From the NCBI GenBank assembly GCA_016722945.1, contig JAEQMT010000066.1:1-64000 (forward strand): a stretch of 64,000 nt of DNA, read 5' to 3'. The DNA is from Desulfofustis sp. PB-SRB1. Lineage in GTDB: Bacteria; Desulfobacterota; Desulfobulbia; Desulfobulbales; Desulfocapsaceae. The notes below the pieces were generated by a model, which made no database searches, was not told the origin of the DNA, and was given only the letters and a program-made list of their open reading frames with translations. Position 1 is the first letter of the stretch. Every line of letters starts with the position of its first letter. Shown piece after piece: positions 21,078-40,066 of the stretch. Both the position numbers and the translations under genes were made by a program.

Positions 21078-21452
21078 ATGATTGATCTCGCTTTTGATAA
21101 ACACAATGATGGACTGGTGCCAGTAGTTACCCAGGATTACCAGAGCCGTTCTGTTTTGATGCTTGCCTACATCAACCGGCAGGCGTGGGAGATGACCTTG
21201 AAGACAGGAAAAGCCCATTATTGGAGCAGATCGAGGCGGAAAATCTGGCTCAAGGGTGAATCCTCGGGCCATATTCAGCGGATCATGGACATTTATGTGG
21301 ACTGTGATGAAGACACGGTAATCTATCTTGTTGAACAACGTGGGCCGGGGGCCTGCCACATGGGCTATCATTCATGTTTTTATCGAAAAGTTGCGGGTGA
21401 CAGCCTGGAAATTCATGAAGAGCGCCAGTTTAACCCCGATGATGTCTATTGA
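21078..21452 (+). CDS. hisI: Phosphoribosyl-AMP cyclohydrolase
   Basis: A 124-residue monofunctional HisI, third step of histidine synthesis. The zinc and magnesium site residues are seen in [20 protein letters not shown]; the [16 protein letters not shown] motif is intact. The ATG at 21078 has GGAG upstream and matches the family start; a longer upstream frame has no family match. It stands 39 bases before hisG. No HisE domain is fused. Confidence 0.95.
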
Positions 21453-36265: not shown

Positions 36266-37591
36266 TTATTCGGGCATCAGGATCGGACAGTCACACTCGG
36301 GATCGCTGATATCCAGCAGCAGGAATTTGGTCTCAAATCCATGGTTGATCAATTCCCGATAAGCAAGATCAGCGCGGGCGCCGGTGGAGCAGTGGACAAA
36401 GATCCGCTTGTCCTTGGGTAGCTCATCGAGTCTTTTGGGAATTTCATCCAGGGGGATGTTTACCGTATTGGGGAAGATGCCGAGCTCGGCAATCTCATCC
36501 GCAGTACGGGCGTCGATCACGTAGGTGTCGGGCAACTCACCCATAACTGCCTGACGGAACTCGGCGACCGAAACCTCTCCCTTACCGAGCTGTCTCACCC
36601 AACTGATCTCGGTGGTGAAGATGGGGCCGGTCTCCACCGCACCGCCGCGGGCAACCCATCCATCAAAACCGTCGATGACAATGGCAACATGCTTGAACCC
36701 TTCATCGCGAAGCTCGTTCAAGGCCTCCATTTCCTCTTCCTCGTCGTTGGCATAGATAACAACCGGAGCATTACGCGGAATATCATCAATTCTGTCGTAG
36801 AGGTCATCAAAAGTGATCTGAATGGAGCGGGGAATACGGCCTTCAACGGCGACACCGTCCTCGCGCATATCAAGCAGCACGATATTGCCCTTGGTCACGT
36901 ATTCATCGGTGGCATAGAGGGGAAGTCCCGCTTTGGACCAGGCGGGCTCGCCTGCTAGAAAACCGCGCACGTTAGTGTATCCAAATTTCTTCGCCATACT
37001 GGCGTTTTGTGAGGTCATGCCTCAGGTGTAGCCGCCGCAGTAGAAAATCAGCAGCTTGTCCTTGTCCTCGGGCAACACCGCTGCTCCTTTTTCTTTGAGC
37101 ATCGGTACCGGGATGTTGATTGAACCCGGCAGGTGGGCCTGGTTGAATCTCATCTCGGGACGGGCATCCACCAGGGTAAGCGGCGTACCATTCTGGATAA
37201 GTTCGTTGAGTTCTTCAACCTGGATTTCAGTAACTCCCTCGGGAAGTTTTGCCAGCTTGGGTTCAATGACGGTGGCGAAACGATCATCACCGCGCTGTTC
37301 CCACTTGATGATGGCTGCTTCGCCTTTTTGGGCAAACTCAAGACCTTGGGTGTCGTCATCGAACCGTACCATCATAGTCTTGGCGTCATCGCCTCTGCCC
37401 ACCGTGATGGAAATTGTTTTTGCCTTGTTGGAGCGGCCCACAACCGGTCCCTGGTAGACATTTTTGTTAGCTTCTTCAGCCGCCGATACCGTCTGGCCGA
37501 ATGGGCTGAAGTCATTTCCGACGCCCGTAAAAATAAAAGCTGCCGCCAATGCGGCACAGAACAGACGGGACGCACTTCTTGCGTGTCGCAT
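36266..37591 (-). CDS. Exported three-domain rhodanese with apparent selenocysteine
   Basis: A 441-residue protein if TGA at 37022-37024 is read as selenocysteine (residue 190). Signal peptide MRHARSASRLFCAALAAAF, then a region of unknown fold (about 40-120) and three rhodanese domains. Domain 1 (about 125-205) has the active loop FYCGGYT-U-GMTS; relatives have Cys at the U place. Domain 2 (about 215-315) has IYANDEEEE and no Cys, so is probably inactive. Domain 3 (about 340-435) has the loop VHCSTGARAD with its Cys. The frame is otherwise unbroken and ends at a good terminator. The start was chosen because GGAGG stands before ATG at 37591. Likely role: sulfane-sulfur transfer in the periplasm. 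Read without Sec, the product stops inside domain 1. Confidence 0.85.
36992..37024 (-). other. Candidate selenocysteine TGA (37022-37024) with SECIS-like stem-loop
   Basis: Seventeen bases after TGA a CGCC/GGCG stem closes the loop AGTAT, so the loop starts 21 bases after TGA and has a G among its first two bases. Both agree with the general rules for bacterial SECIS elements. The stem is short. Confidence 0.6.
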
Positions 37592-37823
37592 AAACTCCTC
37601 CATAATGTTTGATTGTTGAGGTTTAGGTGATAGGTTTTTCATATAGCATAATTTAAAAATAAATGAAATACCTAAATTCAATTCAAAACAGCAAGGCCAT
37701 ACCGCGCCTACAAATCAAGTATAGGGATTTTAAATATCGTGAACAAGGTTGCCGCCAGGTGATTTTTGTTGCGCGAACCTGTAACACACTTGAATAATAT
37801 TAAATTCGTATTAAATATAATTA

Positions 37824-38135
37824 ATGATTGCTGACGATCGCAACAAAGAAATTGAGTGGTTAAAAGTGCTTTCCGAAGAGGATGTCCACTTCGTGAAGCG
37901 GTTTGTCTTGTCCTCCGGTTCACTCAAACAAATGGCTCAGAAATACGGGGTTTCATATCCAACGTTGCGAATTCGTCTTAATCGCCTGATCGAGAAAATT
38001 CGTTTGGCGGAGGATCCCATCGGCAAAGATCCTTTCATACTGTTAATCAGAACATTGGTGGTTGATGGAAGGCTCTCTGCCACCGATGCAAAAGAGATAA
38101 TCGCGGTACATAAAGCGGGAGGCAACAAAACATGA
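37824..38135 (+). CDS. DUF2089-like putative DNA-binding protein
   Basis: 103 residues. Residues about 15-65 form a helix-turn-helix-like region (FVLSSGSLKQMAQKYGVS, then YPTLRIRLNRLIEKI), similar to the part of DUF2089 proteins after their zinc ribbon, which is missing here. The tail (VVDGRLSATDAKEII) resembles SHOCT-type helices. It overlaps the next gene by four bases (ATGA), so the two act as a pair. No clear ribosome site is seen before the ATG. Confidence 0.78.
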   Translation: MIADDRNKEIEWLKVLSEEDVHFVKRFVLSSGSLKQMAQKYGVSYPTLRIRLNRLIEKIRLAEDPIGKDPFILLIRTLVVDGRLSATDAKEIIAVHKAGGNKT

Positions 38136-38482
38136 CGGAACCGTGGTTTGATGCAAACATATATGGATGGATACCGGGTACCCTGCTTGGCGTTATCGGT
38201 GGTGGGATCGGCGGACCACTTATCGGTATCTGTGCCGGTAGAGGAAAACTCAAGGGGCTGGTGCTGGGATTTGTGTTTACCATTCTAGCGACATGCGCCA
38301 TCTTGCTGGGTGCGGGCCTTTATGCTCTGGTATCAGGTCAGCCGTATGGGGTCTGGTATGGTCTCGGCTTTGCCGGCCTGCTTGGGCTCATTATATTTGG
38401 GGGTCTCACTCCTATTATTTTGAGTCGATACCGGGAGGCTGAACTTCGAAAATCATTGGCTGAAGATTTGATGGCGCCGTAA
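38132..38482 (+). CDS. Small integral membrane protein
   Basis: 116 residues with three hydrophobic segments: GTLLGVIGGGIGGPLIGIC, GLVLGFVFTILATCAILLG and LGFAGLLGLIIFGGLTPII. No family recognised. Partner of the upstream DUF2089-like gene, with which it overlaps by four bases. Its last codons and TAA stop (LMAP) lie in the end repeat of the dispersed element at 38467, so the C-terminus may have been altered by insertion. Confidence 0.75.
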   Translation: MTEPWFDANIYGWIPGTLLGVIGGGIGGPLIGICAGRGKLKGLVLGFVFTILATCAILLGAGLYALVSGQPYGVWYGLGFAGLLGLIIFGGLTPIILSRYREAELRKSLAEDLMAP

Positions 38483-38725: not shown

Positions 38726-40066
38726 CTACCGCCAAATCCACTCGGTTTTGAGATCGAGGGTTTTTTCCTCTTCATAAAAGACCACTTCACTTCCGTCGAA
38801 CTCACCAAAAGGCACGTACCACAGGACAACTGATACGTTCAACTCGTCGTTGAGCAATTCCCGTCTGGTGTCACCGTCTTTTTCCATATCCTCATAGGGG
38901 TAGGCAATCTCAAAGGTCTCATGGACGCGGGCCAACGGACCAATGCTTGTTTCACGCAGAATGCCGCTTTTTTCGTAGGGTCCGCGACCCATTTCCTTGC
39001 CGCGTCCCATGCGGGCCGGAAACGGCATATAGATTTTTTCTTCGCGGTACACTTCTTCATCATCAGGGGTTGTGGCGGTCACTTCCAGGACCAGCCTGTT
39101 GGGGGTCGGTCAGCCGTCTGGAATGGCATGCCCCGTTTTATTGTAAATCTCCACATCTATGATACCGATGGGAATAACCCCTTCTTCCCTGTTTTTCCGC
39201 CAGAATATCGAACGACCTTCAACTTTGACATCCAGAGCCATTTCAATCATGGTCGGGTCACGATAGGCCTGCATGTTATGACCCAGTTCCGACTGATACA
39301 TATGGCAGTCCTGGCACGATTCACTACCGCCGTGCGCTACGTAGGCAAAGAGATAACTGCCGTAAGCGGTGGCGCACTGGGAAGGATGATCGAGCTCGAA
39401 ACTCGGGCCCTGTCCATGGCATTGGCCGCAGAAGATCGATTCGCCAATGGCCGGCGCCACGGCCATATTGACGTATTCCTCGTCATCATGGTCTCCTTCC
39501 AGCCCCCCATACACCGTATCCGGCTGTGGATAACCATCGTGATACTTGTGGATCAGGGCAACTTTCTGGTGGCAGACCATGCAGCCGATATTGAGGCTGA
39601 CCAAGGTATCTTCAAGCTCATCAACGGTGTCCCAGTCGTTTTCGCGATAGGCCTGCTGCCAGCCACGGATGGTGGCGACGATTTCCTGAGCAACCTCGTC
39701 GGTTGCCTCGTCGAGCTGGGGAAGGTGACACTTCATGCACATCATGAGGTGTTCAACGGTGATGTCGGAATCCTCCTTGACGCCGGAATATTCAAAAAGT
39801 TTGAGCCCTTTTTCAATGGTTGTGATTATGGTCGGAGCGGTACGCGGCGATCCCAGGACAGATCTGGCGTGCAGTGATTCCTCCCATTCATAGTAGATCT
39901 CCTCGTGACAATCGATGCAGCGGCTCGAATCGTACCGTTCGGCAAGCTCAGCAATCGAAGTTGCCTTAGGAGGTGGTTCGGGTTTTGGTCCACCCGCACT
40001 CTGCGCCGTTATTGCTACCGCGGCAATGGCGAGGCAGGCTAGACCTCCTATCACAATGTGTTTCAT
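38726..40066 (-). CDS. Exported pentaheme cytochrome c with apparent selenocysteine
   Basis: 446 residues if TGA at 39110-39112 is read through as selenocysteine (residue 319). Signal peptide MKHIVIGGLACLAIAAVAI. Five heme c sites: CIDCH (50), CMKCH (110), CMVCH (162), CGQCH (213) and CQDCH (251). After them comes a beta-rich C-terminal part; the passage NKTGHAIPDG-U-PTPNRLVLEV crosses the TGA with no change of frame, and the G-H-x-I-P-D-G context fits the conserved GH(x)P(x)G region of multiheme cytochromes. Without Sec the last 128 residues are lost. It probably transfers electrons in the periplasm, perhaps in sulfur or metal respiration. The ATG is preceded by AGGAGTTATG. Confidence 0.85.
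39074..39112 (-). other. Candidate selenocysteine TGA (39110-39112) with SECIS-like stem-loop
   Basis: Thirteen bases after TGA, GGC-T-GGTC and GACC-GCC pair in a 7-bp stem with one bulged T and an 8-base loop (CTGGAAGT) that starts 21 bases after TGA. A bulged U in the upper stem and G in the loop are features of the known E. coli fdhF element. Confidence 0.6.

Follow-up and report, generated by a model that had tools for sequence, protein, structure and literature searches.

ExtKL was described earlier as a putative selenocysteine (Sec)-containing pentaheme cytochrome (PMC5877670, PMC6148476), and the Geobacter protein is reported as periplasmic (PMC6148476). The family has its own NCBIfam model, NF040886 ("multiheme c-type cytochrome (seleno)protein ExtKL"), which the table of a 2026 review places among selenoprotein families (PMC13188914). 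Two further papers treat ExtKL relatives in main text that does not use the words selenocysteine or selenoprotein (PMC11976967, PMC10553843); one of them reports that the small pentaheme cytochromes (sPHC) found in cable bacteria are structurally related to ExtKL and have an immunoglobulin-like domain (PMC11976967). In addition, the PDB holds entries named MccSep (Multiheme cytochrome c selenoprotein) under two sequences, the first common to 9wt8, 9wta, and 9wtb and the second common to 9wt9 and 9wtc; a literature search for MccSep found no paper describing it. The ExtKL selenocytochrome is an already described selenoprotein family with a solved relative. The novelty that the initial annotation of the present locus had implied for a cytochrome with Sec is not borne out, as ExtKL is already in NCBIfam, in the review table, and in the PDB.

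We analyzed one such gene in the window, by which we mean the whole stretch of DNA under study (64,000 nucleotides). The gene (38726..40066, minus strand) runs from an ATG start at 40066 to a TAG end at 38726 and encodes 446 residues with a single in-frame TGA (39110..39112, minus), translated here as Sec at residue 319 (U319) in the context IPDG-U-PTPNR. The translation scores 568.7 bits against NF040886 (curated cut-off of 250 bits), covering profile positions 7-423 of 423, and matches the two MccSep sequences at E values of 3e-148 and 5.5e-148. Its nearest named relative, from a Desulfobulbaceae MAG, is 77% identical. By these sequence matches, it is virtually certain that the window cytochrome belongs to the ExtKL family.

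All five CXXCH heme-binding motifs (39302..39919, minus; residues 50-54, 110-114, 162-166, 213-217, and 251-255, with cysteines C50, C110, C162, C213, and C251) are N-terminal of U319, so the heme domains do lie to one side of the TGA as initially annotated, and 127 residues make up the C-terminal part beyond it. The two nearest named relatives have five CXXCH motifs each, and among ORFs of more than 80 codons in the 64-kb window, no second ORF with two or more CXXCH motifs was found. A signal-peptide-like stretch, read by eye, opens the cytochrome, which by analogy is most likely secreted and periplasmic. AlphaFold2, given an alignment of the window protein with its two nearest named relatives, returned a low-confidence model (pLDDT 47.5, pTM 0.38) that is mostly beta from about residue 278. 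Foldseek with this model yielded nothing sensible among the best 50 of 711 matches (E ≤ 10), and MccSep was absent from these; the library, dated to 2026-04-08, perhaps does not hold it. Two further TGA read-through frames were seen on the plus strand of the window, at 21450 and 48464, where at least 150 and 90 open codons flank the TGA; these are possibly chance or antisense frames.

The frame had been claimed to run unbroken across the TGA at 39110-39112, and the homology bears this out, spanning the TGA along the whole family profile. For the comparison of the Sec site across relatives, 94 matches were taken, one weak relative was set aside by E value, and the rest gave 72 distinct ORFs; one of these is a contig-end fragment that stops short of the Sec site, leaving 71 distinct ORFs including that of the window. 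The codon at the site is TGA in 65 of these, TGT (Cys) in four, ATC (Ile) in one, and GTT (Val) in one. Cys, which the initial annotation had suggested looking for opposite residue 319, is thus found in 4 of the 71. The weak relative set aside is a divergent one that does not reach the cut-off; its similar stretch reads VPDS-U-PWTS.

If the TGA were a true stop, the cytochrome would end after 318 residues, and what follows would be a remnant or a separate small gene. Some Geobacter annotation does split ExtK plus ExtL, and a table-11 ORF listing gives the window's frame as a 318-aa ORF plus a 118-aa GTG ORF. We nevertheless consider a true stop very improbable. Homologues truly ending at the TGA would have spoken for it, and none was found among the 71 distinct ORFs covering the site. 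In all 71 the frame runs past the site; it adds some 100 or more residues in 70 of them and some 75 in a cut fragment (L105), and in six there is a sense codon at the site. The deposited MccSep chain sequence also continues through it: position 325, which aligns with residue 319, is X in the first sequence and A in the second, whose names include U325A mutant. Finally, synonymous sites beyond the TGA are constrained, as described below. An assembly or sequencing error, in which a sense codon was misread as TGA, might be suspected in a draft genome of 71 contigs; it is extremely improbable, however, given 64 other distinct ORFs with the same TGA and the synonymous constraint just after it.

In searches with NF040886, matches over the cut-off were present in 23 of 58 near genomes (own included), and all 25 of these matches have one TGA. 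In a phylum sample, 40 of 395 genomes, some of them also among the 58 near genomes, had a match over the cut-off; the 50 matches consisted of 43 with one TGA, 6 with no stop, and 1 with a TAA, and as up to four candidates were scored per genome, further copies may be missed from these counts.

A 7-bp stem with a bulged T had been claimed to start soon after the TGA. Such a SECIS-like hairpin is present at 39074..39096 (minus), 13 bases from the TGA to the stem; GGC, a bulged U, and GGUC pair with GACC and GCC around an 8-nt loop, CUGGAAGU. A single-sequence fold of the window's TGA region was not significant (z +0.52), with a different structure as the minimum-energy fold, and the hairpin claim is therefore based on comparison. 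We performed two comparative analyses, a codon test and a count of hairpin pairs. The tested structure was taken from the earlier description and from these same sequences, so the pair counts fit partly by construction; the codon test is free of this.

The codon test takes pairs of Sec rows that share an amino acid and sets their codon identity against that in the rest of the gene; like the tree below, it covers 64 Sec and 5 non-Sec rows, with L105 and L093 omitted as incomplete. At codons +6 to +11 after the TGA, the share of pairs using the same codon among the 64 Sec rows was 1.00, 0.84, 0.94, 0.73, 0.90, and 0.86, against expected shares of 0.29, 0.30, 0.26, 0.52, 0.30, and 0.40. When the gene was divided into ten-codon windows (n = 307), the 12 best all started between codons -2 and +10, and the best had an excess of 0.41 (median 0.001, sd 0.073). 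At the glycine codon just before the TGA (39113-39115, minus), 53 of 64 Sec copies have GGC, and same-codon pairs there reach 0.70 versus 0.31 for glycine codons elsewhere in the gene.

Pair counts were made on 65 Sec and 6 non-Sec rows, and a control in which the hairpin was slid along the gene used 64 Sec rows. In this control, the placement after the TGA formed a mean of 6.09 of 7 pairs, the best of 840 placements along the gene (mean 2.94 pairs, sd 0.48; next best 4.89). Because homology spans the whole profile across the TGA and the hairpin placement is the best of 840, the in-frame TGA goes beyond chance. All four upper stem pairs are formed in 59 of 65 Sec rows, and in two rows A-U replaces G-C there. 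The better stem register is the unbulged one (with a U-G wobble) in 43 of the 65 Sec copies and the bulged one in 18, with 4 ties; 9 of the 65 form only 2 to 5 of the 7 pairs. Among the six non-Sec rows, a Cys copy (L093) forms 6 of 7 pairs, the Ile and Val copies form 5 each, and the others form 3 each. Stem loss in non-Sec copies is only partial, and the fit of the L093, Ile, and Val rows means that Sec and non-Sec copies cannot be told apart by the stem alone.

We then considered the selenocysteine machinery, for which the initial annotation had proposed looking in the genome. All four components are present over their curated cut-offs: selA (611.5 bits), selB (371.6 bits), selD (361.8 bits), and tRNA-Sec (selC; 71.4 bits). 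The selD match (G000:C1:254885-255808) itself has one in-frame TGA, so SelD here is probably a selenoprotein too. Across genomes, selB was found in 39 of 40 with the ExtKL family (the window's own not among them) versus 17 of 20 without it, these 20 being the first listed without a match and not a random draw; because SelB is common in the phylum sample, its co-occurrence with ExtKL adds nothing. The Sec reading of the TGA is supported by the lack of ORFs ending there, the four Cys relatives, the machinery, and the conserved SECIS-like hairpin, and from this comparative evidence Sec is almost certainly inserted at residue 319. Sec insertion and membership of the ExtKL family, taken jointly, are highly likely.

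The residue at the site is variable within the family. With Ile or Val in two relatives and, as read from unaligned motifs, Leu (three) or Val (one) after GHxxPTG in four distant pentaheme relatives, Sec at this position is not chemically essential everywhere. A tree of 69 rows was built with the Sec-site residue excluded. Four changes of the Sec label are required on it, and well-supported branches force three or more of these. This suggests that Sec at this site may have been repeatedly replaced, with the changes counted irrespective of direction. Of the five non-Sec rows, three belong to a single family (f41), and L089 and L090 Cys are on long branches where placement is unsure. Tandem ExtKL copies with Ile or Val at the Sec site (PDSI/PDSV) occur in two genomes, G083 (L090) and G256 (L079), where the partner is a Cys copy and a fragment cut by the contig end, respectively. 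G083 also has a Sec copy elsewhere, giving one genome with all of Sec, Cys, and Ile. With Sec, Cys, and Ile/Val forms all present in the ExtKL family, what selenium contributes at this site can be tested.

About 1 kb downstream of the cytochrome, on the same strand, is a three-domain rhodanese gene with one in-frame TGA of its own (36266..37681, minus; three rhodanese matches, one of which spans the TGA). Between the two genes are two plus-strand ORFs, one with a DUF2089 match (37824-38135) and one without a Pfam match (38132-38482). The rhodanese frame opens at a TTG (37681), and the start is likely an ATG at 37603 or 37591, as judged from a signal-peptide-like start. The TGA (37022..37024, minus), read as Sec, is in the CGGYT-U loop of the first domain, in the context FYCGGYT-U-GMT, and the U is kept in relatives. 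It is followed by a SECIS-like hairpin (CGCCA GUA UGGCG; 36992..37004, minus) with a z score of -1.70, where 17 of 200 shuffles were as good.

A search of the collected loci with the rhodanese protein matched 10 genomes, nine of which (own included) have U in the loop; the tenth (L088, E value of 7.4e-9) has no U there. In eight of the nine U-bearing genomes, the minimum-energy fold of the sequence after the TGA contains a hairpin whose centre keeps the same distance; L039 is the exception, with a sequence that can form the hairpin but a different minimum-energy fold. The rhodanese is directly downstream of an ExtKL relative on the same strand in eight of the nine (own, L112, L113, L039, L037, L044, L040, and L093), and in L103 the two genes are several kb apart on opposite strands. 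In L093 (G341), the adjoining cytochrome has Cys at the Sec site and a TAA in its upstream part. The pairing count should be read as at least 8 genomes, with just 1.5 kb of flank at many loci, and other relatives may be without the pair. By these sequence comparisons, the rhodanese is a probable second selenoprotein near ExtKL. The NCBIfam seleno-rhodanese models are below their cut-offs for the window rhodanese (NF041203, 49.9 of 115 bits; NF045694, 55.9 of 805 bits). A further rhodanese domain in the same genome (G000:C1:374868-375152) also has one in-frame TGA.

What might such a cytochrome do? By the comparative evidence above, Sec is almost certainly inserted at residue 319, by SelB and tRNA-Sec under the guidance of the hairpin that follows the UGA, at the start of the mostly beta C-terminal domain and right after the GHxxPDG motif. 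For the protein we infer, at just short of an even chance, a chalcogen-redox role: it would act as a redox enzyme on compounds of selenium or sulfur, and its Sec, at the junction between the heme domain and the beta domain, would lie at a heme or close to one. The five hemes would carry electrons to or from the Sec site, where Sec would bind and reduce such a compound (selenite, sulfane sulfur, or a disulfide), and the nearby rhodanese may supply or take up the chalcogen. In Geobacter, loss of the neighbouring porin ExtI led to a defect in selenite and tellurite reduction and left Fe(III) citrate reduction unharmed, and a preliminary study suggests involvement of ExtKL in selenite reduction (PMC5877670). 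The rhodanese neighbour and this selenite link of the cluster point to a selenium or sulfur substrate, though neither is a test of the window protein.

The protein could instead serve as a carrier for electron transfer in general, its Sec tuning or ligating a heme with no substrate chemistry, a reading that we regard as a serious possibility somewhat below an even chance. ExtKL is within a putative electron-conduit cluster in Geobacter (PMC5877670, PMC6148476), and is more abundant when growth is on Fe(III) rather than fumarate; Fur is said to control it (PMC5877670). It is discussed among cable bacteria cytochromes (PMC11976967), and syntrophic sulfate reducers express a relative at a high level (PMC10553843). 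However, the 64-kb window has no other multi-CXXCH ORF, the nearby rhodanese is a pointer towards sulfur or selenium, and loss of ExtI affects selenite and tellurite and not Fe(III) citrate, a result that concerns ExtI and not ExtKL itself (PMC5877670). The Fe(III), Fur, and syntrophy links speak for plain electron transfer about as well as the rhodanese and selenite links speak for the chalcogen role (PMC5877670, PMC10553843). As an extension of the chalcogen-redox role, ExtKL and the three-domain rhodanese could work together in the cell envelope as a unit of two selenoproteins, in which the rhodanese Sec (CxxxxU) would pass a (seleno)persulfide to Sec319 for reduction by heme electrons; we think such a Sec-to-Sec relay conceivable but rather unlikely.

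As a claim of a new phenomenon, the window gene carries little weight. It is a well-supported addition to a known, little-understood selenoprotein family, and it brings comparative evidence on the SECIS of that family. The part most worth following is the pairing of the cytochrome with a TGA-bearing rhodanese, which is a concrete lead on the substrate (sulfur or selenium compounds).

Finally, we compared the locus with its closest known systems. Cytochrome c552 (5ze8) matches the window cytochrome weakly, best over residues 31-72 (E value of 1.4e-5), and has Ala at the Sec site in a weak second stretch of alignment. MccSep aligns with the window cytochrome in a single alignment over residues 11-434, in which many sequence positions differ. 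For the rhodanese, the review tabulates rhodanese-like selenoprotein forms 1-5, with form 1 given as UxxS (PMC13188914); the window loop reads CGGYT-U-GMT and its relatives UGMS or UTMS, a likeness to form 1 that is by listed motif only. Geobacter sulfurreducens ExtKL (GSU2937-2936) resembles the window protein in being a pentaheme cytochrome whose gene has a single in-frame TGA, read as Sec, and a rhodanese gene is near the cytochrome both in the window and in the Geobacter ext cluster (PMC5877670). The ext cluster has further multiheme cytochrome genes, whereas the 64-kb window has no second multi-CXXCH ORF. Unlike at the Geobacter ExtKL locus, the rhodanese gene of the window is downstream of the cytochrome, has its own in-frame TGA, and is separated from it by two plus-strand ORFs.
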